38,299 nt of DNA from a virus. The stretch covers positions 1 to 38,299 of the IMG/VR virus record IMGVR_UViG_3300036845_000114; one strand, written 5' to 3'. Numbering within the stretch: position 1 is the first letter of the stretch; each line of letters opens with the position of its first letter. Below are positions 8,810 through 36,367 of the stretch, in pieces. The notes under the pieces were generated by a model. That model did not search any database, was not told where the DNA came from, and saw only the letters and a list, made by a program, of their open reading frames with translations. A program made the translations under genes and the position numbers.

Positions 8810-8895
8810 AAAGTTTTTGGGCCCGACGTACTAGAGTAAAAATTGGAAATAGATAACACCTTTTGCCGTTCTGGAAAAAACGGCTTAAAACCCTT

Positions 8896-8970
8896 GCGGG
8901 TTAGCTCAGTTGGTTAGAGCGCAGTACTTGTAATACTGTGGTCGCCGGTTCGATTCCGGTATCCGCACCA
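8896..8970 (+). tRNA. tRNA-Thr (anticodon TGT)
   Basis: A cloverleaf: D arm GCTC/GAGC, anticodon stem CAGTA/TACTG with loop CTTGTAA (TGT, reading ACA), 5-base variable loop, T arm GCCGG-TTCGATT-CCGGT, and encoded CCA. The acceptor stem has only six pairs (GCGGGT/ATCCGC, including one G-T), because both strands are one base short. A seventh pair would need T8895 with the discriminator A, and would then shift the CCA. It lies between an accessory block and late-proximal small genes. Confidence 0.85.
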
Positions 8971-10400: not shown

Positions 10401-10442
10401 ACTTTTTGCGTTGTAATGTGTGCGCATATACATTGCGCGCCA

Positions 10443-10907
10443 ATGATTTCAGAAACACGACGACGCCTTAAAGAATGGGGCATATGGGCTTGCGGCGGCG
10501 AGCCGCAGCTTTCAAGTATGTTTCGCTCGATGTTCGGGCGCGGCGCGCAAGATTTAAGAGAAATGCCGCCGCATATTCAGCAAATCGATCACATCATCTG
10601 TATTGCCCCGCCCGACATTCGCCACGCCCTCATCAAGTTTTACGGCACTGGCGGCACCTTCCAAGACAAAGCAATTTCTTTCGGCCTAGATCGCAAAACG
10701 CTACGCCGTCGTATAGATCGCGCAGACTATTACGTCCATTCCACCCTTGACAACCTTCCCGAAAAAAACGAAATTCGCGCGCAGAATGGCCTTGGTGTCC
10801 ACCAAGCCACAAAAATGCGGGTAAGTGAACCAGTGTCACGCCGGGCTCATAACTCGGAAAGGCCGCGCGACTCGGCAACCCGCTACCAACCCTTAGAGGT
10901 AAGCTAA
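10443..10907 (+). CDS. Q/ArpU-like antitermination candidate
   Basis: A 154-aa protein from ATG 10443 (another start at 10416 is possible; neither has a clear ribosome site). Residues 45-95 read IDHIICIAPPDIRHALIKFY, then a KAISFGLDRKTLRRRIDRA helix-turn-helix, the arrangement of phage late regulators of the Q/ArpU/RinA type, which resemble sigma region 4. The gene lies immediately before the late genes, the expected place. The last 50 residues are polar and look unstructured. The role is inferred from fold pattern and position. Confidence 0.65.
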   Translation: MISETRRRLKEWGIWACGGEPQLSSMFRSMFGRGAQDLREMPPHIQQIDHIICIAPPDIRHALIKFYGTGGTFQDKAISFGLDRKTLRRRIDRADYYVHSTLDNLPEKNEIRAQNGLGVHQATKMRVSEPVSRRAHNSERPRDSATRYQPLEVS

Positions 10908-11109: not shown

Positions 11110-11490
11110 ATGGTCATGACACCAAGTCAAGCGGCTAATCGCAATCAACCGGCTAGCAACATGCGCGGCCGCGACACCATCGGCAAAGGCACGCCGAAGG
11201 GCGCGGGCGGCGTGTATGCGGGCAAAGACCCGATAGCCTTTGACACGCGCAGCAACACCGTACACGGCGAGCCTAAAGGCGCGCCCGACAATCGCAGCAA
11301 CAACGCGCGCGAAGTCGGCGACGTGATGCTAGCCCAAGAAGCTAAGGGGCGCGACGTTACGCAAAAGAAAATGGACAAATTTGTGTCCAACCAGCACGCC
11401 AACAACCACGGCGGCGCGGGCGCGATGACTTTCCGCATAGAAGAGGGAAACCGCGCCAAGCAAATCGACCAAGACAAGCCGCCGCAGTAA
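11110..11490 (+). CDS. hypothetical hydrophilic protein
   Basis: A 126-aa protein, Asn/Gly/Lys-rich and low in hydrophobic residues (ASNMRGRDTIGKGTPKGAGG), then a charged helix. An in-frame ATG six bases on (11116) is another possible start. It is followed by a TAATG overlap with the next gene. Function is unknown; its position suggests a late-phase accessory or virion-associated protein. Confidence 0.5.
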   Translation: MVMTPSQAANRNQPASNMRGRDTIGKGTPKGAGGVYAGKDPIAFDTRSNTVHGEPKGAPDNRSNNAREVGDVMLAQEAKGRDVTQKKMDKFVSNQHANNHGGAGAMTFRIEEGNRAKQIDQDKPPQ

Positions 11491-11639
11491 TGCCGGAACC
11501 GGCGAAAGGCGAAAAGCTTAGCGACTTCGTAGGCCGCTACATGGGCAGCGGGGAAGCGCGTAAGAGCTTCCCGAAACAATCGCAACGCGCCGCCGTTGCG
11601 TATTCGGAATTTCGGGAAAAGAAACGTAAGAAGGCATGA
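11490..11639 (+). CDS. 49-aa conserved small phage protein
   Basis: The start is the ATG sharing its A with the previous stop (TAATG at 11488). The sequence MPEPAKGEKLSDFVGRYMGS, followed by FPKQSQRAAVAYSEF, belongs to a recurrent small phage protein family of the 'KGEkksdFm.rcms...FP.qkQRvAvcys.wr' type. It ends in a Lys/Arg run and overlaps the next start by ATGA. Function is not established. Confidence 0.7.
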   Translation: MPEPAKGEKLSDFVGRYMGSGEARKSFPKQSQRAAVAYSEFREKKRKKA

Positions 11640-12031
11640 ACGTTGACGGCGTAAGGCTAGCGGATAAATCCGTTAACTTTGTGCGTGGGCGCGTGCGCCC
11701 GCTGCGCGACCAAGTGATAGTTAAGCCCCTACCCTTGAAGCTGGGCGACAAGCTCGCCGCAGATTGGCAAGGCGCGCCCGTGGTCGGCGTGGTGCAGGCC
11801 GTTGGCCCCGGGTGTTACTTGAACATCCACGAAAAGGGCTTCAAAGACGGCAAGCCCTACCGGCGCGTGCGGCAATCGAAAGTTTTCACGCCAACGGAAG
11901 TAAAACCGGGCGACAAGGTGCATTTAGGTGGCATGGAGCTAGGCGGCTATCTGTTCCCGCAAGTATGGATAGATGGCGCGTGGTGCGTACTGTGCCGCGA
12001 GCAAGATGTAGCAGTGTTACAGGAAGCGTAA
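11636..12031 (+). CDS. GroES/Cpn10-like co-chaperonin
   Basis: A 131-aa protein whose segments match GroES in order: RPLRDQVIVKP (21-31; GroES RPLHDRVIVKR), GVVQAVGPG (51-59), VKPGDKVHLGG (89-99) and REQDVAVL (121-128). It is about 35 residues longer than GroES because of an N-terminal extension and an insert at about 60-85. Cpn10 heptamers cap GroEL, and T4 gp31 replaces GroES for capsid folding; the same role for the coat protein here is inferred. The mobile-loop region (32-48) is unlike GroES and may bind GroEL differently. It lies right before the terminase. Confidence 0.75.
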   Translation: MNVDGVRLADKSVNFVRGRVRPLRDQVIVKPLPLKLGDKLAADWQGAPVVGVVQAVGPGCYLNIHEKGFKDGKPYRRVRQSKVFTPTEVKPGDKVHLGGMELGGYLFPQVWIDGAWCVLCREQDVAVLQEA

Positions 12032-12034
12032 AAC

Positions 12035-12424
12035 ATGGGCACCGTTAAAGATAATCCGAAGATGGCAAAGAACATTGGCGTTAAAGGCGTTGAGCCGCCG
12101 CAATTTGCCAAATATCGCGCCGAGCGCATCCCGGGGCAGCCTACAAAAGCGCGCGCGCGGATTCAATCGAGTTTCTTAAACGCGCTAGCGGATGACTTCG
12201 ACAAGCACGGGCGCGGCGCGATTGAGTATTGCCGCCGCAATGACCCGACCGCTTACGTAAAGGTTTGCGCGTCGCTCATGCCGAAGGAATTCAAGCAAGT
12301 TTCCCCATTGGAAGAAATGACCGAGGCCGAACTAGTTGCAGCCGTCGAACATATCCGAAGCAAGATTATTGGAAATCTTGACGCGGGAATTATTGAAACG
12401 TCGGGCACGGAATCAATTAACTAG
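12035..12424 (+). CDS. terminase small subunit
   Basis: A 129-aa protein. The segment SFLNALADDFDKHGRGAIEY, then DPTAYVKVCASLMPKEF and an ELVAAVEHIRSKI helix, is the common pattern of podo- and siphovirus small terminases. These bind the packaging site and present DNA to the large subunit. A basic N-terminal part could contact DNA. The last 89 bases overlap the large-subunit frame, an unusually long overlap that leaves the start of the next gene open. Confidence 0.75.
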   Translation: MGTVKDNPKMAKNIGVKGVEPPQFAKYRAERIPGQPTKARARIQSSFLNALADDFDKHGRGAIEYCRRNDPTAYVKVCASLMPKEFKQVSPLEEMTEAELVAAVEHIRSKIIGNLDAGIIETSGTESIN

Positions 12425-13763
12425 CTATAAGCCGTATCCGAAACAATTAGAATTTCACGCGGCGGGCTTGGATTACCGCGAGCGCTTGCTAATGGCAGGC
12501 AATCAACTAGGCAAGACGCTAGCGGCGGGCATGGAAACCGCCATGCACTTGACCGGGCAATACCCGCCCGATTGGCCCGGGCGCCATTGGCGCCGCCCCG
12601 TGGTGGGGTGGGCGGCGGGGGTTACGGGCGAGTCAACGCGCGATAACCCGCAACGCATTTTGCTTGGGCGCCCCGGCGAATTTGGTACCGGTGCGATTCC
12701 GAAAGATTTAATTATCGATCATACAAGCTCGCGCGGCATGGCGGATGCGCTCGATACCGTGCGCGTGCGCCATATTTCCGGCGATGTTTCTACGCTGCAA
12801 TTTAAAGCGTATGAGAAGGGCCGCGAGAAATGGCAAGGGGAAACGCTAGACTTTGTTTGGTTTGACGAAGAGCCGCCCGAAGATATCTATACGGAAGGCT
12901 TGACGCGGACCAACGCTACCGGGGGCATGACGTTTATTACCTTTACGCCGCTCCAAGGTATTACGGGTGTCGTGCGCCGCTTCATTATCGATAAACAAAT
13001 CGGCACACACTTTACGCAAATGGCGATAGATGACGCGGCGCACTTCACGCCCGCGCAGCGCGACGCAATCATAGGCAGTTACAAGATTTATGAGCGCGAC
13101 GCCCGCACTAAGGGCATTCCACAACTTGGGAGCGGCCGCGTGTTTCCAGTGAATGACGATGACTTGCGGGTGAAGGCCTTCGCCATCCCCGACCATTGGC
13201 CGCAGATCGCCGGGCTAGATTTCGGGTGGGACCATCCGAGCGCGGCGGCGCGGCTCGCATGGGATCGCGATAACGATATTTTGTATGTCACCGCGATTAA
13301 GCGCGCGCGCGAGAACACGCCAACCATGTTTGCCGCGAGCGTGAAAGCTTGGGGCGCCTGGTTGCCGTGGGCCTGGCCGCATGACGGCTTGCAACACGAC
13401 AAGGGCAGCGGTGAGCAATTGGCCGCGCAGTACCGCGAGCAAGGCTTAAACCTTTTGCGCGTGCGCGCCACCTTTCCCGATGGCAGCAACGGCTTAGAAG
13501 CCGGAGTCACGGAAATGTTAGACCGCATGCAAACCGGTCGATTGTTGGTCTTCGATCATTTAGCGGATTGGTTCGAAGAGTTTAATTTGTACCATCGCAA
13601 AGAGGGCCTAATCGTCAAGCTAAACGACGATTTAATGAGCGCAACACGCTACGCCATGATGATGCGCCGATTTGCGAGCGTGGCGAGCAAGCTTATTCCC
13701 CGCCCGCACTTTGAACGGCTCTTCGTCGGGCGTAACGGTGATGAACACGGTTGGATGATGTAA
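12336..13763 (+). CDS. terminase large subunit
   Basis: The packaging ATPase and nuclease, 475 aa if begun at TTG 12336; TTG 12369, 12378 or 12393 are other options, as no ATG precedes the conserved part. YKPYPKQLEFH leads into Walker A G55-NQLGKT-61, then Walker B LDFVWFDEE (171-179). The RNase H-like nuclease part starts with IAGLDFGWDHP (D295), followed by the PHDG aspartate near residue 365. Length and motifs fit complete, active large terminases of P22/BcepC6B-type phages. It cuts concatemers and drives DNA into procapsids through the portal at 14071. Confidence 0.9.
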   Translation: MQPSNISEARLLEILTRELLKRRARNQLTSYKPYPKQLEFHAAGLDYRERLLMAGNQLGKTLAAGMETAMHLTGQYPPDWPGRHWRRPVVGWAAGVTGESTRDNPQRILLGRPGEFGTGAIPKDLIIDHTSSRGMADALDTVRVRHISGDVSTLQFKAYEKGREKWQGETLDFVWFDEEPPEDIYTEGLTRTNATGGMTFITFTPLQGITGVVRRFIIDKQIGTHFTQMAIDDAAHFTPAQRDAIIGSYKIYERDARTKGIPQLGSGRVFPVNDDDLRVKAFAIPDHWPQIAGLDFGWDHPSAAARLAWDRDNDILYVTAIKRARENTPTMFAASVKAWGAWLPWAWPHDGLQHDKGSGEQLAAQYREQGLNLLRVRATFPDGSNGLEAGVTEMLDRMQTGRLLVFDHLADWFEEFNLYHRKEGLIVKLNDDLMSATRYAMMMRRFASVASKLIPRPHFERLFVGRNGDEHGWMM

Positions 13764-13765
13764 CT

Positions 13766-14071
13766 ATGGCCGCCGTAATTTCTCGCAAACAATCGCGCGA
13801 CCCGGGCGCCAAATTTGCGGCGGGCGATTCCGCGCGCTTTAGCGGGCAATCGGCCGACCGCAGCGTATCGGGCGATATGGACGTTAAAGTAGTCGACCCG
13901 TGGAGCAATAAGCACAAAGTGACTAGCACGGATTCGCGCGGGCAACCATACGAAGGCGCGAGCATGCACTTGCCTACCGCGCGCGTAGAGCGACCGGAAC
14001 AAAAATTTATGGGCGCAATGCGCCCCGCAAAACAATTCGAAGCGTATCACCATACGTTAAGCAAGGCTTAA
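13766..14071 (+). CDS. hypothetical late protein
   Basis: A 101-aa protein from ATG 13766, just after the terminase stop. It is hydrophilic and basic (SRKQSRDPGAKFAAGDSARF), with HLPTARVERPEQKFM toward the end. It shares the polar style of the products at 10908 and 11110, without clear alignment. It lies between terminase and portal and overlaps the portal start by one base, so it is probably packaging- or head-related. Confidence 0.5.
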   Translation: MAAVISRKQSRDPGAKFAAGDSARFSGQSADRSVSGDMDVKVVDPWSNKHKVTSTDSRGQPYEGASMHLPTARVERPEQKFMGAMRPAKQFEAYHHTLSKA

Positions 14072-16251
14072 TGCCGACGATTCCGCGCGACCTGGAACGC
14101 CAAGCAACGACAGATAGAGAAATATTTAACGAATGCCGCGAGCGATTACGCATCGCCACGGAAGCGGAAAACCAAAACCGCGCGAACGGGATTGAAGCGC
14201 AACAATTTCGCGATGGGCGTCAATGGCCCGATGATTTATATAACCAGCGCAAAATTGATAAGCGCCCCTCGCTTACCATCAATCATACGAATACTTTTGT
14301 GCGCCGTGTTGTTAACAACATGCGCCAAGAGCGCCCGCGCATCAAGGTCCACCCGGTAGGCGATGGCGCCGACGTGCCGAAGGCGCAAGTTATTTCGGGG
14401 CTTATCCGCCATATCGAAAACATTTCGAATGCTTCCGTGGCGTACGACACGGGCGGGGAATCGGCCGTTACGATTGGTTGGGGCTACTGGCGCGTCATGT
14501 CGGATTACTTGGCGCCGGATTCTTTCGACCAAGAATTAAAAATCGTTCCTATTCGAAACACTTTCACGGTGTACTTCGACCCGACTAGCACCATGCCAGC
14601 CGGGGAAGATGCGGAATGGTGCATTTTAACCTACAAGATGAAGCGCCAAGACTACGCGCGCGAATACCCGGACGCGGATAACGTCGAATTTCAACGCACG
14701 GGCAACGGCGATGAAATGAGCGAATGGGAAACGAAAGAAGAGATACGGCTAGCAGAGTATTACCGGGTTAGAAAGGATGCCGACACGCTCTATCAAATGA
14801 GCAACGGTATGGCGCTATTCGCCGATCAAATCGATGAGCTAAGCGCCGATCTATCCGCCGCCAAGGTAACGAAGGTGAAGGGCCCGGGCGGCAAGGTAGT
14901 TAGCCGTCCAACGGTGCGCCGTTGCGTCGAATGGTTCCGCTTGAACGGGCAAGAAATAGTCGACAAGCGCACGCGCAGCGAAGACCCGTTGCCCGATCAA
15001 TGGATTCCGGTAATACGTTGCGAGGGCAACGTCATAGACTTAAACGGCACGGTGCGCCGTAAGGGCATGGTCGCGGATTTGATGGACCCGGCGCGCATGT
15101 ACAACTATTGGCGCACCATGGAAACGGAATTGCTCGCGCTCGCACCGAAGGCGCCGTTTATCGTCGCGGCCGGGCAATTGGATGGGCACCCGGAATGGAA
15201 GGACGCCAACCAAAAGCCCTACTCGGCGTTGGTGTATGAGCCCGCCTTCGTTGAACAGCCGGACGGTAGCAAACAAGTTTTGCCGCCCCCAACACGTATG
15301 CCAGCGGTGCCGGTGCCAGCGGGCGCCGTGCAAGCGGCCCAAGGCGCGCAGCAAGATTTAATGGCCGTTGCCGGGATGCCGCATGACCCCGTAGCAGATG
15401 TGCCGGGGGCGGCAATCTCGGGCGTAGCTCTTCAACGGCGCCAAGCCTTGTCCGACATTTCGCATTATCAATACTACGACAACCAAACGCGGGCCATTGC
15501 GCACACCGGCAAGATTCTTTTGCAGCTAATCCCGTTTTATTACTCAACGGCGCGCATGCAACGGATTATCGGCGAAGACGGCGTGCCGCAAATGGTTGGC
15601 ATCAATCAACCGCAAACCCAAGGCGTGGGCCCCGATGGCGTCGCCATCCAAGCGGTAAAAAATGATTTGAGTATCGGCCGCTATGACGTGGTGATGGACA
15701 CGGGCCCCGGCTATGAAACCAAGCGCCTAGAGGGCGCCGAGTCAATGGTAGAGCTACTAAAAACGCCGCTCGCCGAGCCTATCGTGAAAGTCGGCGCCGA
15801 TATCGTGGTGCGCAATATGGATTTCGCCGGGGCATCGGATTTAGCCGACCGCTTGGCGCCGATGAATCCGCAAGGCATGCAACAAGCCATCGCGAATTTG
15901 CCGAAAGAAGCGCAGAACATTGTTTCGACGCTACAGCAACAAAACCAGCAATTGACAACGCAAGTACAGCACTTGCAGCTTGAAATTAAATATAAATCCG
16001 ATATCGAACACGGTTGGCAGCAAGTAGAGCGCGAGAAACAACACGCGCACTCTAAAGAAGTTCAAGTCAAAGCGGAAACCGCAATTACCGACACGCACAC
16101 CAAAGCGCAGACGGCACGCGACGTTGCCGAGATCAATCAAGCGGGCAAGCTCATTGATTCCGAAGCGCAGCGCGGCCATGACCGGCGCGCGCAAGATAAA
16201 GAATTAGCCGCCGCCGCATCCGCAGAAAAAGCTAACGGCGCGGCAAAGTAA
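14071..16251 (+). CDS. portal protein (P22 gp1-like)
   Basis: A 726-aa protein. Early residues (QQFRDGRQWPDDLYNQRKID, then RPSLTINHTNTFVRRVVNNMRQ) and IRHIENISNA are characteristic of P22-type portals; length matches P22 gp1 (725 aa). A long Gln/Glu/Lys helical C-terminal part, about 610-720, corresponds to the P22 barrel region. It forms the dodecameric vertex ring through which DNA enters and leaves. A hairpin follows the stop. Confidence 0.9.
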   Translation: MPTIPRDLERQATTDREIFNECRERLRIATEAENQNRANGIEAQQFRDGRQWPDDLYNQRKIDKRPSLTINHTNTFVRRVVNNMRQERPRIKVHPVGDGADVPKAQVISGLIRHIENISNASVAYDTGGESAVTIGWGYWRVMSDYLAPDSFDQELKIVPIRNTFTVYFDPTSTMPAGEDAEWCILTYKMKRQDYAREYPDADNVEFQRTGNGDEMSEWETKEEIRLAEYYRVRKDADTLYQMSNGMALFADQIDELSADLSAAKVTKVKGPGGKVVSRPTVRRCVEWFRLNGQEIVDKRTRSEDPLPDQWIPVIRCEGNVIDLNGTVRRKGMVADLMDPARMYNYWRTMETELLALAPKAPFIVAAGQLDGHPEWKDANQKPYSALVYEPAFVEQPDGSKQVLPPPTRMPAVPVPAGAVQAAQGAQQDLMAVAGMPHDPVADVPGAAISGVALQRRQALSDISHYQYYDNQTRAIAHTGKILLQLIPFYYSTARMQRIIGEDGVPQMVGINQPQTQGVGPDGVAIQAVKNDLSIGRYDVVMDTGPGYETKRLEGAESMVELLKTPLAEPIVKVGADIVVRNMDFAGASDLADRLAPMNPQGMQQAIANLPKEAQNIVSTLQQQNQQLTTQVQHLQLEIKYKSDIEHGWQQVEREKQHAHSKEVQVKAETAITDTHTKAQTARDVAEINQAGKLIDSEAQRGHDRRAQDKELAAAASAEKANGAAK

Positions 16252-16349: not shown

Positions 16350-17387
16350 ATGGGCAAAGTAATTACGGGCGCGGGCCTAAATGATTTTATTTCCAGCGGC
16401 AAGGTCGAAGAGATCAAAGACGCGCCGAAAGCGAAGGCGGCGAAAGAAGCGCCAGCGCTCGAAGTAGTGAAAATCGCCGGCGATGGTGGCGGCGATAAAA
16501 AAGCGGAACCGAAAGAAGATGACGCGCCCGCCGAAGAGCTTAGTAGCGCGGAAGAAATTGAAGCGGCGATAAAGGGCAGCGACGCGCTCGCCGATTACGT
16601 CACCAAGAAAAACGCGACGATTAATCGCAAGCACGCGCAAATGCGCGAAGCGCAAAAGGCCGCCGATGAGGCGGAAGAGTTTGCAAAAGGACAATACACG
16701 CGCGCGCGTCTAGCCGAAGATCGCGCCGCGCAGATCGAAAGAGAGTTAGCAGATTTTAGAGCTAAGGCCGCGCCAGCGGCAGAGAAAGCGCCGGAGATGG
16801 TTAAACCGGACCCGGCAAAGTTTTACGATGATAAAGGGCAATTTAAGGCGTTTGAATACGCGGAAGAGTTAGCAAGTTATGCCGCTAAAAAAGCGGTGGA
16901 AGAGGATCGCGCGAAGGTAGTAGCGGAACAACAAGCGGCGCAACTCGCCGCAGCGGAAGCGCAAGCACGGGCTCGCGTCGCCGCATCGATTAAGAAGTAT
17001 CCCGATTTTGAGCATGTCTTAGGTGAAACGGACACGCGTCTACATACGCGCGTACTCGAATACCTAAGCGCAAGCGATTACATCGGTGATGTTTCTTACT
17101 ACCTCGCTAAGCACCCCGATTACGTCGAGCGTATCAACAAACTAAACCCGCTTAAGGCAATCGCCGAGATCGGGAAACTTGAATTGACCTTCGAGCCGAA
17201 GACCGAAGACACAACTAAAAAAGTTGTGGAAGAAGTCGCGGCAACGAAGGTTGCCCAGGGAGCGCCCCCGCCCATCAAGCCGCTAACCGCATCGGGTGCC
17301 GTGAATGTCAACACGGACCCCGCAAAAATGTCGTTTCGCGATTTGAGAGCTTACGAAAGATCGCGCGCCGCATCTAAGCGCCGCTAA
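16350..17387 (+). CDS. scaffolding protein
   Basis: A 345-aa, highly charged, Ala/Glu/Lys-rich, helical protein lacking a globular core: coiled-coil stretches at about 75-145 and 180-215, and a short basic C-terminus (RAYERSRAASKRR). A basic helix-turn-helix at the C-terminus is what P22 gp8 uses to bind coat. Position between portal and coat is canonical. It should direct procapsid assembly and exit before packaging. Confidence 0.8.
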   Translation: MGKVITGAGLNDFISSGKVEEIKDAPKAKAAKEAPALEVVKIAGDGGGDKKAEPKEDDAPAEELSSAEEIEAAIKGSDALADYVTKKNATINRKHAQMREAQKAADEAEEFAKGQYTRARLAEDRAAQIERELADFRAKAAPAAEKAPEMVKPDPAKFYDDKGQFKAFEYAEELASYAAKKAVEEDRAKVVAEQQAAQLAAAEAQARARVAASIKKYPDFEHVLGETDTRLHTRVLEYLSASDYIGDVSYYLAKHPDYVERINKLNPLKAIAEIGKLELTFEPKTEDTTKKVVEEVAATKVAQGAPPPIKPLTASGAVNVNTDPAKMSFRDLRAYERSRAASKRR

Positions 17388-17427: not shown

Positions 17428-18783
17428 ATGGCTAATAACCTTCTCACTATGAGCTATATCACCAATGAAGCTCTAGTGGTTTTAGAAAATGAATTGGTGA
17501 TAGCTAACCGGGTGGAGCGCCAATACTCGAATGAGTATGCGCAAACCGGCGCGAAAGTCGGTAACACCGTCAACATTCGCCGCCCGCCCCGTTACATCGG
17601 TACTTATGGGCCACCGCTCAACGTTGAAGACACTAATGAAACGTTTTTGCAGGTCGCGCTTAATTATCAGTTCCATGTTGACGTTCAATTCACCACGCAA
17701 GATTTGGCGCTATCCATGGACATGTTCAAGAAACGCGTGTTGCGGCCGCAAATCGCAGCGGTTGCAAACCGCATCGATAGCGACACCGCACAATATGCAT
17801 TCTTGAATACCGCCACCACGTTGGGACAATTTGGCACTAGCCCGGCTAGCTACAAAATTTTCTCCGACGCGCGCGCGTATCTCGCGGCCGAAGCATGCCC
17901 AACGGAAGGCGAAAAGAATTGCATATTGGACCCGGTGAGCATGTCGGCGGCAACCGATGCCATCAAGGGATTGTTTAACCCGCAAGTGCAAATCGGCGAG
18001 TACGTCGAGAAGGGTTTGATAGCGCGGCAGTTCGCCGGGCTCGATTGGTGGGAAGACCAGAATGTGCCCACCTTCCAAACCGGCATCCAAGGCGGCGCGC
18101 CTACCGTCACGGCAACCCCGGGCGGCACTGCGCTTATTTCCACGGGATGGGTACAGCAAGGCACGCTAAATACTGGCGGTTGGACCGCTAGCACGGGCGT
18201 TGTCAAAGTTGGCGACACCATCCAAATTGCGGGCGTCTTTCCGGTTAATCCGCAAAACCGTTTGCAGTACGGAAAGATTCTTAAACAATTCGTTGTGTTG
18301 CCGCCCGGTGGCTTCGTCACGCCCGCGAACGGCGCAGCGGTTCCCGGTCTTACCTTCGGCGCCGCAACGCTGGCTAACGGAACTTTCACCCCGGCAACCG
18401 GTGTGTATACCTCCACCGCTGGCGGCTTGCTCACGCTCACGATTGGTGAGGCGGTGATAAGCGGCGGGCAGTTCCAGAACGTCACGGCGGCACCGGCTGC
18501 TAATGCGGTAATTACCGTGAACGGTGGAACCGGTAACGCGAACGTCACAAGCCCGCAAGGCTTGGTGTTTCACAAATATGCTTACGCATTGGCGTTTGCA
18601 GATTTGCCGTTGCCGCAAGGCGTAGAAATGGCGGTGCGTGCTTACGACGATGAAGATGTAGGCATGTCCATACGTTGCGTAACGCAATACACGATTAACA
18701 ACGATAGCGAGCCAACGCGCGCAGACGTGCTGTATGGCCCCGCGTCGCTGTACCGCTCGCTCGGCATTCGCATAGCCGGTTAA
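17428..18783 (+). CDS. major coat protein (P22 gp5-like)
   Basis: A 451-aa protein preceded by TTAGGAGCAA. MANNLLTMSYITNEALVVLE begins a P22-type coat N-arm, and the QYSNEYAQTGAKVGNTVNIR pattern is typical. The Gly/Thr/Pro-rich section at about 225-375 probably forms the inserted (I-domain-like) beta region; the C-terminal part resumes the HK97 fold. It makes the icosahedral shell. It is the likely main client of the GroES-like protein, because P22-like coats need the GroE machinery. Confidence 0.88.
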   Translation: MANNLLTMSYITNEALVVLENELVIANRVERQYSNEYAQTGAKVGNTVNIRRPPRYIGTYGPPLNVEDTNETFLQVALNYQFHVDVQFTTQDLALSMDMFKKRVLRPQIAAVANRIDSDTAQYAFLNTATTLGQFGTSPASYKIFSDARAYLAAEACPTEGEKNCILDPVSMSAATDAIKGLFNPQVQIGEYVEKGLIARQFAGLDWWEDQNVPTFQTGIQGGAPTVTATPGGTALISTGWVQQGTLNTGGWTASTGVVKVGDTIQIAGVFPVNPQNRLQYGKILKQFVVLPPGGFVTPANGAAVPGLTFGAATLANGTFTPATGVYTSTAGGLLTLTIGEAVISGGQFQNVTAAPAANAVITVNGGTGNANVTSPQGLVFHKYAYALAFADLPLPQGVEMAVRAYDDEDVGMSIRCVTQYTINNDSEPTRADVLYGPASLYRSLGIRIAG

Positions 18784-30191: not shown

Positions 30192-32087
30192 ATGACAACC
30201 GCCTTTCTTTCGCCAAGTGCCAAATTCGTCGCATTTGCGAACGGCGGCGCGCCCCTAGTAGGGGGGCAGCTTTTCACCTACAGCGCTGGCACGTCGACCC
30301 CGGTAGCGACATACACCGATAACACGGGCGGCACGCCAAACAGTAACCCCGTGGTGTTGAATTCTCGCGGCGAAGCTAACGTATGGCTTTTGCCAAACGT
30401 CGGCTACAAATTCACGCTAGAAGATGCGGCCGGTAACATTATTTGGACAGTCGACCAAGTATTTAATTCGCAACTGCTAACGCTCTTCGGTGGCGTCGAT
30501 ACCGGCGCCGCCAATGCCTATGTCTTGAATTTCGCAACGCCGTTCACTTCCTACGCGAATGGCGAAGTCATTTATTTTATTCCGAGCTTCACCAATTCCG
30601 GCCCATCAACCTTAAACGTTAACGGGCTTGGGCCGATTCCGATTGTAAATATCAACGGCACGCCGTTGGGCGCCGGGCAAATTACATTCGGCCAAACAAC
30701 CCAAGTCATGTATTACAACGGGAATTTCCAACTGCTAAGCATTGGAAGTTTCACGGGCGTAACGATTGGGACATTCGGACAAGAGACGCCGATAGCATCG
30801 GCCGCGACTACCGACCTAGGCACCGCCGCTGCGCACGTTGTGCAAATCACCGGCACGACAACTATAACTAGCTTCGGCAATTCCGCGAGCATTACCGCGC
30901 CCATCTATCACGTCCGCTTTACCGGTTCGCTAACCCTTACCTACAACGCGACGAGTCTTAATTTACCCGGCGCGGCTAGCATTATCACGCAACCCGGGGA
31001 TGCGCTCTTAGCGCAGTACTTAGGTAACGGAAATTGGAAAGTTAATTTCTACCAAAGCACTACGGGCAGCGTTTCCACGTCGAAGGTAAAGCCCGGCGAC
31101 ACGGTGCGCATAAGTACGTCAACACTAACGCCCGACCCCGACCTACAAACCCCGACGCTAACCATTGGCCGCTATGTCTATGAACTTTATTTGCTCTTCG
31201 ACTCGGTAGTAGCGGGCGCGGGTTTCAAGTTCACCAACGACGGCACGGCGGTTGACTCGCGCGGGCAAAGCCCCGCCGTGGGCTTAGGTTTTGTGAATGG
31301 CGTTGCCTATGGTCCGAACGGGCAAAGCTTTTACGCAACCGTGGTGCCTTTTGCCGCCATATCGACAACCGCTTACAGCAACGAAGCCTTTTTCAAAGGC
31401 TCGCTACTCGTCGGCAGCGCTGGCACGTTTGGTGTTTCGTGGGCGCAAAACACGCTAACCGCGAGTAATACCACGCTGCGCGCCGGTAGCTATTTGCTCA
31501 TGACGTTGGTTAGCACCGGCACATCATCGACCACTATCACGCGCATTTATACGACGGTTGGCAGCTTCGTTGAAACGGTGCCGATAGGCTTTAACACGCT
31601 CACGCTCGAAGTTTGGGGCGGTTCGGGCGGCGGTGGATTCCAAAGCGGCGGCACCAATGGCGGCGGCGGCGGCGGGTCGGGCGCTTATTGCTTGTCTAGT
31701 TACTCGGTAACCGGGCAAGGCGGCAATACCTTGAACTTTACCGTCGGCGCCGCTGGCGTCGCGGGCGGCACCAACGGCGGCGCGTCGAGCGCATCTAGCG
31801 GCACGATGGCAATAACCACGATGAACGCGCCGGGCGGCATTGTCGGCGGTAACGCAAGCCCGGGCATAGGTGGCACGGGCGGCCCGGGCGGCTCGCCCGC
31901 CACGGGCGGCACCGTCACCAATACCAACGGCAATAGCGGCGCTACTCCGGGCGGCGTGATAGGCGGCGCGGGCGGGCTCGGCATACCCGGCATTAATGAT
32001 GGGGGTTTCAATGGCGGCGCCGGGCAAGGCGTCGCGGGCGTGCATAACGGTTTTACTGGAATCGTTGTTTTTAGTTACTCCGTATGA
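30192..32087 (+). CDS. tail fibre/receptor-binding protein with Gly-rich tip
   Basis: A 631-aa protein. Residues 1-90 (FANGGAPLVGGQLFTYSAGT, then NPVVLNSRGEANVWLLPN and an AAGNIIWTVDQ) form a virion-attachment domain shared with the next gene and common in podovirus spikes. A beta-rich shaft follows. From about 475 to the end the chain is highly Gly-rich (WGGSGGGGFQSGGTNGGGGG ... GGTGGPGGSP), like the polyglycine sandwich tips known from phage adhesins. The tip is probably the host receptor contact. Confidence 0.8.
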   Translation: MTTAFLSPSAKFVAFANGGAPLVGGQLFTYSAGTSTPVATYTDNTGGTPNSNPVVLNSRGEANVWLLPNVGYKFTLEDAAGNIIWTVDQVFNSQLLTLFGGVDTGAANAYVLNFATPFTSYANGEVIYFIPSFTNSGPSTLNVNGLGPIPIVNINGTPLGAGQITFGQTTQVMYYNGNFQLLSIGSFTGVTIGTFGQETPIASAATTDLGTAAAHVVQITGTTTITSFGNSASITAPIYHVRFTGSLTLTYNATSLNLPGAASIITQPGDALLAQYLGNGNWKVNFYQSTTGSVSTSKVKPGDTVRISTSTLTPDPDLQTPTLTIGRYVYELYLLFDSVVAGAGFKFTNDGTAVDSRGQSPAVGLGFVNGVAYGPNGQSFYATVVPFAAISTTAYSNEAFFKGSLLVGSAGTFGVSWAQNTLTASNTTLRAGSYLLMTLVSTGTSSTTITRIYTTVGSFVETVPIGFNTLTLEVWGGSGGGGFQSGGTNGGGGGGSGAYCLSSYSVTGQGGNTLNFTVGAAGVAGGTNGGASSASSGTMAITTMNAPGGIVGGNASPGIGGTGGPGGSPATGGTVTNTNGNSGATPGGVIGGAGGLGIPGINDGGFNGGAGQGVAGVHNGFTGIVVFSYSV

Positions 32088-33184
32088 GCGTACAGCTAGC
32101 ACCATCGCCAGTCTTTCGCGCAGTCGCGAATGACGGCACCGCGTTAGTTGGCGGGCAACTCTTTACCTATGTTGCGGGCACCACGACGCCGCAAGCAACG
32201 TACATCGATGTTACGCAAACGACGCCGAACACCAACCCCATAATTTTAAATTCGCGCGGTGAAGCCAATGTATGGCTAGTGCAAAGTCAAACGTACAAGT
32301 TTGTCTTGCAAGATGCGCTAGGGAATCTCATTTGGTCGGTGGATCAAATCGCGGGCAACAATTTGCCCTTCGGCATCACGGTATCGGCGGCGGGCAATGT
32401 CACCATAGGCCCCCCGACTAGCGGCCTTGCCTTGACGGTTAACGCCGCCTCTGGGCAGCAAGGCATACTAATTAATGCGGATACAACTAACGGCACGTCG
32501 GCGCTTCAATCGCACGTTGTAGCTAATGCCGTTGCTGGCGGCTTAGTACTGCAAAACCAAAGCTTAGGCACCGCCGCTGCAATCGTCATCGATATTCAAA
32601 ACACGGCTACAACTTTTGTGCTCGGAATTAGCGGCGCTGGCTTTACGGGTACATTTGTTCCGGGCGGCCCTTCGGGACAATGCGCGGGCATAGTGACCAA
32701 CGGACCGGTTCCGCTAGCTATCGGAACCAATGCAACTACCGCGCAAGTGATTAGCGCGGGCGGTAACGTGAGCATACTTGCGCCGCCTAGCGGCGTTGCT
32801 CTCACGGTTACGCAAAACGCCGGGAGCCCCGCGTTTGCTTGGACCAATGGCGCCGTTACGGCGAACCTTGGAATAGGCAACGCATTTTCGGTAGGGCAAC
32901 TAGAAATTTTTTCCCTTGGCACCGCTCCATTAGGCCTTGGTCCGACTGGTAACGCTGCGTTAAATTTTTATACCAATTCAACCAATCGCCTCTCTATATC
33001 GGGCGCTGGCATATTGTCTTTCCTTGGCGGCGCCGGGCAAGGTCAATTAGCGGGATGGGGTACGCCCACCGGGTTTTCGGTGGTTCCTAATTTCCCCGGC
33101 GCCACCGCTACACTTTTGCAGACTTCTACCGCTGTCGCTGAAATAATCGCGTTTTGCAAAAACATAGGATTCTTTGCGGCTTAA
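32084..33184 (+). CDS. second tail fibre protein
   Basis: A 366-aa protein, ATGA-overlapping the first fibre. Its N-terminus (NDGTALVGGQLFTYVAGTTT, NPIILNSRGEANVWLV) is a paralogue of the first fibre's, whereas the rest parallels the product of 20050-21375: GNV-x-I-x-PPTSGLALTVN modules and the GWGTPTGFSVVPNFPGATAT end. It is probably a trimeric fibre sharing the attachment site, or a branch of the first one. Confidence 0.75.
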   Translation: MSVQLAPSPVFRAVANDGTALVGGQLFTYVAGTTTPQATYIDVTQTTPNTNPIILNSRGEANVWLVQSQTYKFVLQDALGNLIWSVDQIAGNNLPFGITVSAAGNVTIGPPTSGLALTVNAASGQQGILINADTTNGTSALQSHVVANAVAGGLVLQNQSLGTAAAIVIDIQNTATTFVLGISGAGFTGTFVPGGPSGQCAGIVTNGPVPLAIGTNATTAQVISAGGNVSILAPPSGVALTVTQNAGSPAFAWTNGAVTANLGIGNAFSVGQLEIFSLGTAPLGLGPTGNAALNFYTNSTNRLSISGAGILSFLGGAGQGQLAGWGTPTGFSVVPNFPGATATLLQTSTAVAEIIAFCKNIGFFAA

Positions 33185-33787: not shown

Positions 33788-34720
33788 CTATTCCCCTGTA
33801 AGTGTACGCAAGGCCTGCAATACTAGTAGATGCATTTCGTTGAATTCTTTAATCACTCCGTTTTGTAAATCCGCATAGGCCGCCGCCTTCGCATGCTTCA
33901 AGAGCGCCACCGCATCGCGCATGCGCGTGGATAACACCGCCGTTGTTTCTTCGACTTGCTTCTTGCTGTCGCCGTAACTAATCCCGATACGCGCGCCGCC
34001 TCCATTCTTTTTTGGCTTTCCTTTGTTCGCTAACCCGCCTTTGCGCCCCGCCGCCGCTCGCCACGCATGTTGTTTATTCTTGTCGCTACTCCAATTGTAA
34101 ACGTTCGAAATGTCGATACCTAAGCTGTCTGCTACTTCCTTCGCCGACTCGCCCGCCTTCAATCGTTTGAGCGCCGCCACCTTGTAGAGCGCCGTATAGG
34201 TTCCCCTCTTTACATCCTTTTTTTGGGTTGTCATTTTCGCCTTTTTTTGTTGCATCAATTCATTGCGCCGCGCCCATTCTTTTTTATAGTTTCGCCCGCC
34301 CTTGTGCTTCGCCGGGTCGCGCGTTTTGTGGTAGGGCTCGCGGCCTTCGCCAATCATTCGGCGCCACGCCGAAAGAATGCTTGGGCGTACGTCTAGCTCG
34401 CGGCCTAGATCGGCGCTGTTAATCTCGCCCGACATGAGCCGCGCAACGGCTTCTTTTTTGTAGGCATCCGAATAAACCTTATTACCCGATGGCCCGACGA
34501 TAAAGCCCGTTTCCGGTTTATCTACGTCCATGCCCTTACCGCGTACCCATTGCCTAACGTGCGTCGGGTGTACGCCTAGCTCTTCGCCTACGGCGCGCGC
34601 GGTTTCCCCGCCCTTAATGCGCTCTACAACTTTTAATTTAAAGGCATGTGTATAGGCGTGCTTACCGGCTCGCGTTAGCGTCACGCCTTCGGGTAGTTGT
34701 TGGGGGGCGTTTTCTGCCAT
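33788..34720 (-). CDS. triple helix-turn-helix protein (transposase-type HTH, no catalytic domain)
   Basis: A 310-aa protein from ATG 34720 (GAGGG 6 bases upstream). It has three units similar to the HTH of IS3-type transposases: residues 23-60 (YTHAFKLKVVERIKGGETAR...VRQWV), 83-123 (YSDAYKKEAVARLMSGEI...ILSAWRR) and 175-211 (YTALYKVAALKRLKAGESAK...VYNWS). Basic linkers separate them and a helix closes the chain (about 255-308). No DDE or serine-recombinase motif is seen. It probably binds long DNA sites as a regulator. It is co-transcribed with the zinc-ribbon gene and csrA. Confidence 0.75.
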   Translation of the reverse strand: MAENAPQQLPEGVTLTRAGKHAYTHAFKLKVVERIKGGETARAVGEELGVHPTHVRQWVRGKGMDVDKPETGFIVGPSGNKVYSDAYKKEAVARLMSGEINSADLGRELDVRPSILSAWRRMIGEGREPYHKTRDPAKHKGGRNYKKEWARRNELMQQKKAKMTTQKKDVKRGTYTALYKVAALKRLKAGESAKEVADSLGIDISNVYNWSSDKNKQHAWRAAAGRKGGLANKGKPKKNGGGARIGISYGDSKKQVEETTAVLSTRMRDAVALLKHAKAAAYADLQNGVIKEFNEMHLLVLQALRTLTGE

Positions 34721-34964
34721 ATGCAACCCTCATTGTTTTGTTGTCACGTTTCTCTTTCCTAAATGCCGCTAAGTCTTGGTCGGCTTTCCGGTCTTCAAAG
34801 TTGGTGATTCGAAATAAGCTTTTTTCGCGCTTATAGCGTGCATCGATTAGCTCGGCGGGCGTCTTCTTATCCCAGTAGTACATTGATTGGCGGCATTTCT
34901 GACAGTATTTTTTTCGGCCATGTACGGGCAAAGATTCCGGGCAGCGGAAGGTCGGGCATTTCAT
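34662..34964 (-). CDS. phage zinc-ribbon protein
   Basis: A 100-aa protein. C3, C8, C21 and C24 (MKCPTFRCPESLPVHGRKKY, then CQKC) resemble a small phage family with 'VHGRKKHCAKCR' and 'YW-K-PPAE'. The rest is basic and helical, ending in an Arg-rich tail. The last 59 bases overlap the triple-HTH gene. AAAGGGG precedes the start, and the 34981-34994 palindrome lies directly upstream of that, so this is the first gene of the operon. Confidence 0.65.
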   Translation of the reverse strand: MKCPTFRCPESLPVHGRKKYCQKCRQSMYYWDKKTPAELIDARYKREKSLFRITNFEDRKADQDLAAFRKEKRDNKTMRVAYGRKRPPTTTRRRDANASR

Positions 34965-35283: not shown

Positions 35284-35326
35284 GCTTTTGAAGTCGATTA
35301 TTATTCATCACAAGGAGTGCAATTCC

Positions 35327-36367
35327 ATGGCAACCACAGTTAAGCGCGGTAAAGTTTACCGCACCTCAATCCGCTTATCCGGCATGTCACAACCGGTCAC
35401 CATGACCCACGCCACCAAGGCGGAAGGGAAAGTATGGGGCATGCAAGAAGAGAAGCGCCTACGCGGGCGCTTGAAGCTCTCCGGGTTATCCTTCGGCGAT
35501 GTGATCCGCGCCTATATCGTGAGCAAATGCAAAGACCCCGCCAAGGCGCGCAACGCCACGCAACTGCGCCGCTTTGCAACCGAGTTTGATCGCACCGCCA
35601 TTAAGGACATGACGTGCAAATGGTGGGAAGAAACCGCGCTAGCCTGGCCGAATCTTACCCCCTTTAGCCGCATGACCTACATGCAACGCTTACGCATGGT
35701 CATGAAATGGGCGAAGAATGGCCCGGATAAAGTGCAGTTCGATTGGGATGCGGTTAAAGAAGCCACCGGGTACTTGCTCGCCAATAAGGACATTACCACC
35801 AAGGCACGCAAGCGCGAGCGGCGCGCATCGGATAACGAACTGGCGCGCTTAAAGGCTTGCTCGAATAACACCAAGTATCCTATCGGGGATGTCATCGAAT
35901 TCGGCGTGCTTACGGGTTTGCGTATCGGGGAAATCTGCAAATTAAAATGGGCGGATTTCTACCAAACCAAGCGCGGCCCGATGATTACCGTACATGACCG
36001 GAAAGACCCGCATAACCAGGACGGCAACGATGGGGAAATTCCCTTGCTCGGCAACGCCGCCGCCATCGTGCAACGCCAGCCGAAAGGCGATGCGCGTATC
36101 TTCCCCTTCGACCCCAATGCCTTTGGTAACGCGTATCGCGCCGTGCGCCATCGTGCGGGCATCAAAAATTTGCGCGTCCATGACTTGCGCCATGAAGCGA
36201 TAACGCGCCTGTTCGAGCAAGGCTACTCAATCGAAGAGGTATCGGACATTTCCGGGCACAAGGATTGGGAAACCTTGAAGCACTATCGCATCGGTGATTC
36301 ATCGCGCTTGCATGATGGGCCGATTGCCAACATGCTCGCGGCGCAAGGCCGCAAGCGCGTCGCTTAA
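35327..36367 (+). CDS. tyrosine recombinase (phage integrase)
   Basis: A 346-aa protein. ATG 35327 is chosen because AAGGAG is 9 bases upstream; a longer frame from 35288 lacks one. The N-terminal arm-binding type domain (GKVYRTSIRLSGMSQPVTMT) resembles shufflon/integrase families. The catalytic set is complete: R199 (GVLTGLRIGE), K226, H285-x-x-R288 (HDLRH), H311 (SGHKDW) and Y320 (KHYRIG). It should integrate the phage at an attachment site. It converges on the Xis-like gene with only 5 bases between the stops. Confidence 0.9.
   Translation: MATTVKRGKVYRTSIRLSGMSQPVTMTHATKAEGKVWGMQEEKRLRGRLKLSGLSFGDVIRAYIVSKCKDPAKARNATQLRRFATEFDRTAIKDMTCKWWEETALAWPNLTPFSRMTYMQRLRMVMKWAKNGPDKVQFDWDAVKEATGYLLANKDITTKARKRERRASDNELARLKACSNNTKYPIGDVIEFGVLTGLRIGEICKLKWADFYQTKRGPMITVHDRKDPHNQDGNDGEIPLLGNAAAIVQRQPKGDARIFPFDPNAFGNAYRAVRHRAGIKNLRVHDLRHEAITRLFEQGYSIEEVSDISGHKDWETLKHYRIGDSSRLHDGPIANMLAAQGRKRVA

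Follow-up and report, generated by a model that had tools for sequence, protein, structure and literature searches.

The window analyzed here, a stretch of viral DNA 38,299 nucleotides in length (IMG/VR record IMGVR_UViG_3300036845_000114), encodes a 131-residue protein that belongs firmly to the Cpn10 superfamily, carries an enlarged, basic roof, and accompanies one lineage of P22-like coat proteins. The protein probably aids the host folding machinery in making phage capsid proteins. In the specific form that we favor with reasonable confidence, it would be a divergent Cpn10 ring capping host GroEL for virion-protein folding, chiefly that of the acidic, 48-kDa P22-like coat. Phage GroES proteins are already well known; we found no paper on GroES of P22-like podophages among open-licence papers, and the proposal gives a function to genes that go unannotated in Pfam and PHROG searches.

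The co-chaperonin gene

The ORF at 11636-12031, originally claimed from the sequence alone, was recovered exactly (plus strand, ATG start, 131 aa). An AAGAAGG stretch precedes its ATG, which is overlapped by the stop of a small upstream ORF, and translational coupling between the two is likely. Comparison with the related locus L001 revealed purifying selection (dN 0.058, dS 0.575), which indicates that 11636-12031 is a real gene. A scan for promoters and terminators returned matches no commoner than expected by chance. The gene and its parts are as follows:

11490..11639, plus strand: small upstream ORF, 49 aa, its stop overlapping the co-chaperonin ATG
11636..12031, plus strand: roof-enlarged Cpn10/GroES-family co-chaperonin gene (Pfam, hhalign, AlphaFold, Foldseek)
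11636..11689, plus strand: N-terminal extension, residues 1-18, not in GroES; near relatives keep GVRL.DK..NFV
11690..11731, plus strand: Cpn10 N-terminal strand RVRPLRDQVIVKPL, residues 19-32 (family profile alignment to GroES)
11732..11788, plus strand: mobile-loop equivalent, residues 33-51 (PLKLGDKLAADWQGAPVVG), in which the likely counterpart of GroES L27 is Ala and a conserved Trp follows two residues on
11813..11899, plus strand: enlarged basic roof hairpin (predicted), residues 60-88 (CYLNIHEKGFKDGKPYRRVRQSKVFTPTE), 29 residues, net charge +4
11900..12028, plus strand: Cpn10 C-terminal half, VKPGDKVHLGG...CREQDVAVL (Pfam and profile alignment)

Searched alone, the window protein scored 17.7 bits against Pfam PF00166 (Cpn10), below the cut-off of 21.1, while a relative, L029, cleared that cut-off by itself (28.8 bits, 2-92/93). 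Neither a PHROGs search nor tblastn against 50,697 phage records gave a match with the window protein. Iterated IMG/VR searches yielded 51 related loci, four of which (L069-L072) encode ordinary short Cpn10s, and a family profile was built from an alignment of 40 phage sequences. In hhalign, this family matched ten aligned canonical Cpn10s at a probability of 98.9 (E=1.2e-17), and its profile matched GroES of the PDB (E=3.4e-9), both GroES halves aligning in order around an insert. The AlphaFold2 monomer of the window protein had a pLDDT of 84.8; when it was searched against the PDB with Foldseek, the first 24 matches were all Cpn10/GroES, with nothing credible below them. The best match in a viral model library was UniProt A0A6J5KIU6 (53% identical, TM 0.84), a "GroES chaperonin family" protein of an uncultured Caudovirales phage. 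It is apparently a member of the enlarged-roof family that was already deposited, and we found no study of it beyond that deposition under the GroES family name. Taken together, the hhalign and PDB GroES matches, the Pfam score of L029, the predicted fold with its Foldseek matches, and the viral library match make membership of the Cpn10 superfamily firm.

The sequence-only reading had seen a Cpn10 signature over most of the chain and had called the protein a phage-encoded GroES homologue, and both statements are strongly supported by these comparisons. An unrelated beta-barrel fold as best match, the outcome which that reading had named as contrary to it, did not appear. The extension of about 18 residues that it had placed at the N terminus is likewise borne out and is conserved among near relatives. 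The edge strands form the subunit interface in GroES. Both are conserved in the 40-sequence alignment, which counts toward a co-chaperonin reading.

An enlarged roof and an altered mobile loop

An insert had been placed at residues 60-85, and it proved to be the GroES roof, predicted to have been turned into a long beta-hairpin (strands 59-70 and 73-86, with pLDDT >90 across the block in the AlphaFold2 model). The roof stretch spans 23-36 residues with a net charge of +2 to +6 in 60/60 measured relatives, whereas ten canonical Cpn10s have 4-12 residues there and a net charge between -1 and +1, so that the window roof falls outside the canonical size range. Its basic, aromatic character is kept in all measured family members. 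Since the size of the co-chaperonin roof already varies, T4 gp31 having none (PMC6318259), the enlarged roof is a variant and not a defining feature. The open-licence papers searched gave no prior description of such an enlarged, basic roof, of the loop changes, or of the tie to one coat lineage.

The GroEL-contact loop, which had been said not to look like that of GroES, is indeed altered: in the profile alignment it is ~4 residues shorter than in GroES and the GG-I-V-L motif is absent. Loops of the family instead follow the pattern S-x-x-hydrophobic-x-[A/V/L/I], usually with an aromatic residue two positions later. Two positions of this pattern would correspond to GroES I25 and L27, give or take about one residue in the register. 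The likely I25 position is hydrophobic in every loop read, and the likely L27 position is Ala throughout the window's own supported clade of 26 rows (support 99/96) and Val, Leu or Ile in 34 of the 37 rows outside it. In E. coli GroES, I25A and L27A each lower affinity for GroEL >1000-fold, and V26D is tolerated (PMC5575113). Considering the cost of L27A in GroES, the loop of the window clade may bind GroEL poorly, and weak binding caused by this Ala is plausible from the sequence, although the conserved Trp or the host GroEL might make up for it.

Plausibly weak binding suggests mixed rings with host GroES, in which the phage protein, a poor GroEL binder alone, would supply the basic roof while host GroES subunits would supply the grip. 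Several observations are consistent with such a lid, which we nevertheless hold to be unlikely. The Ala is fixed across the supported 26-row clade, and two relatives (L163:1477-2283 and L164:1102-1908, minus) contain a 269-codon open frame in which an enlarged-roof Cpn10 domain precedes a canonical GroES domain (94 bits) whose GGIQI loop is intact; a single-sequence structure prediction of this tandem protein was uninformative (pLDDT 31). There is also precedent: Arabidopsis Cpn10(1) needs to form hetero-oligomers with Cpn20 to be active (PMC4242682), and GroES rings built as concatemers keep their action on GroEL when one or two modules carry an I25 mutation (PMC5575113). However, the sister clade retains I-x-V and might bind without a partner, co-assembly with a distant host GroES is hypothetical, and the loop register carries an uncertainty of about one residue.

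The same loop, deviating as it does from the GroEL-binding motif, could also belong to a Cpn10 fold that has been exapted as a GroEL-independent ring acting directly in head assembly, for instance by binding coat, portal or nucleic acid with its basic hairpins. The basic, aromatic roof of all measured members and the position of the gene adjoining those for terminase, portal and coat would fit such a role. Nevertheless, the hydrophobic loop anchor is conserved family-wide, the L163/L164 fusion joins the domain to a canonical GroES, an ordinary-looking GroES occupies the same slot in Xanthomonas phage PBR31, and the gene is retained where the large terminase subunit (TerL) differs; we therefore regard exaptation as improbable.

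Association with a P22-like coat lineage

The co-chaperonin gene stands at the head of a block of structural genes in the window:

12035..12424, plus strand: conserved next gene, probable small terminase subunit (TerS; weak phrog_8771)
12336..13763, plus strand: TerL (Pfam, PHROG)
14071..16251, plus strand: P22-like portal (Pfam, PHROG)
16350..17387, plus strand: head scaffolding protein (PHROG)
17428..18783, plus strand: P22-like coat protein, 451 aa, 47.9 kDa, pI 4.95 (Pfam, PHROG)

The order Cpn10-TerS-TerL-portal-scaffold-coat recurs in dozens of loci. At about ten loci the relationship of TerL is no longer detectable, and the portal is kept, as are scaffold and coat where the sequence allows. 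Conversely, phages whose TerL is 53-59% similar, and in whose examined stretches no window-type coat is detectable, carry no Cpn10 at all. Together these two sets of phages ruled out the possibility that the gene goes with the terminase. In L014, L015, L026 and L027 the family Cpn10-like gene lies beside an unrelated TerL type; a collagen-like repeat protein is encoded downstream, and a P22-like portal farther along.

The association was also examined in reverse, starting from the best 80 coat loci in IMG/VR (≥71% identity) and counting a co-chaperonin gene anywhere on the contig. All 34 of the contigs with at least 6.5 kb upstream carried the gene, one of them as a fragment truncated where the contig ends, in a test biased toward near relatives because the coat query was drawn from gene-carrying contigs. 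A scan of a genome collection with a five-member Cpn10 alignment found none, and the same collection scanned with a coat alignment gave three contigs; 2/2 bacterial-assembly contigs with enough sequence carry the co-chaperonin gene. Across 24 genomes, the partial distance correlation between Cpn10 and coat, other genes controlled for, was 0.33 (permutation P = 0.017, nominal, as one of four tests), and there was no such correlation of Cpn10 with TerL, portal or scaffold. The gene thus follows the coat and not the terminase, and its presence with this coat lineage is near-universal. Among records with distant P22-like coats (≤34% identity), 12 of the 13 tested lack a Cpn10, which shows that such coats need no Cpn10 as a rule.

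The link to the P22-like coat that had been suggested from the sequence is therefore supported by synteny, by co-occurrence, and by the nominal distance correlation. The description of that coat as large did not hold, since at 451 aa and 47.9 kDa it is smaller than T4 gp23 (~56 kDa), which is itself said to exceed the capacity of the GroEL-GroES cage only slightly (PMC6318259). A larger cage for a large coat was ruled out by this size.

Many unrelated phages carry ordinary Cpn10 genes, several of which lie away from head genes; a tblastn search with GroES matched 83 records of the phage collection, a few of which are bacterial sequence. Such genes, together with the modest size of the distance correlation, could suggest that the protein is a general replacement for host GroES during infection, with no tie to the coat and with synteny reflecting operon inheritance. 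We consider this improbable, given the near-perfect co-occurrence with one coat lineage, the near absence outside it, and the persistence of the gene where TerL differs. In a different phage type, Shewanella phage 1/44, an annotated GroES (L075:3992-4297) lies between the minor and major tail protein genes.

Neither the window nor 14 related phage contigs contain a Cpn60, so any partner would be host GroEL. In the mechanism that we favor, the window protein would form a ring, expected to be a heptamer, that caps host GroEL while virion proteins are being made. Its most likely client would be the P22-like coat, with the basic hairpins of the roof lining or closing the dome and shaping or charging the surface that faces the acidic coat chain. 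The constant hydrophobicity of the likely I25 position, the L163/L164 fusion, and the Cpn10s of PBR31 and of spring-water phages support the co-chaperonin reading, whereas the Ala at the likely L27 position, the nominal status of the coat correlation, and the 12/13 distant coats without Cpn10 count against a co-chaperonin for the coat.

Other features of the window

Many relatives conserve, upstream of the co-chaperonin gene, a 163-aa ORF (10416-10907 in the window) that matches no known family. Further upstream of the structural block lies a tRNA-Thr (TGT) at 8895-8969. An integrase (PHROG) at 35288-36367 indicates that the phage is probably temperate. On the minus strand, a 312-aa ORF at 33788-34726 contains three transposase-type helix-turn-helix stretches, and no catalytic domain was found in it. 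The adjacent proteins at 30192-32087 and 32084-33184 share an N-terminal family (phrog_26190) and are perhaps alternative tail-fibre or spike proteins.

Comparison with known co-chaperonins

The influence of the lid on the range of GroEL clients rests largely on one phage example, the roofless gp31. Phages with coats related to that of the window encode Cpn10s whose roofs range from none (spring-water phages) through ordinary (PBR31) to greatly enlarged and basic (the window family), with the tandem fusion in addition. Two spring-water phages (coat 45-46% identical) encode nearly roofless Cpn10s, located just upstream of the terminase in MW202674, as in the window, and at the end of the deposited sequence in the circular record MW202520; phage DSL-LC05 (coat 32%) also has a roofless Cpn10. 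This natural series would allow matched clients to be used in testing how the roof and loop affinity affect client choice. It is conceivable, although on balance we doubt it, that the lineage evolved client-specific lid subunits, in which a weakened grip on GroEL and a large basic roof would match the ceiling of the chamber to a single lineage of P22-like coats; these subunits might act in rings mixed with host GroES.

With bacterial GroES/Cpn10 (PF00166), the window protein shares its fold, the colinear halves, the edge strands, and the placement of loop and roof. It differs in its 18-aa N-terminal extension, in a loop ~4 residues shorter, and in a roof of 29 residues and charge +4 where that of bacterial GroES has about 12 residues and a net charge of -1. 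In the cultured phage PBR31, whose coat is 53% identical to that of the window, orf017 is annotated "co-chaperonin GroES" and occupies the same slot, followed by a small ORF, TerL, portal, scaffold and coat, but it has a short, ordinary roof and a GroES-like AGILV loop, and the enlarged-roof family profile gives no match to it. The L163/L164 protein resembles chloroplast Cpn20 in joining two Cpn10 domains head to tail; unlike Cpn20, it pairs an enlarged-roof domain with a canonical one, and the window gene itself is single-domain.

The sequence-only reading had likened the protein to T4 gp31. The family has no sequence match to gp31 (hhalign probability 0.2%, E=0.27), and gp31 combines a longer loop (22 residues against 16) with the lack of a roof loop (PMC6318259). 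An identity of the gp31 type was thus ruled out, both by the hhalign result and by a shorter loop and larger roof in place of a longer loop and missing roof. What stands is the analogy of how the two may work, as both are phage-encoded and occur in a context of head morphogenesis, with the anatomy of loop and roof reversed.
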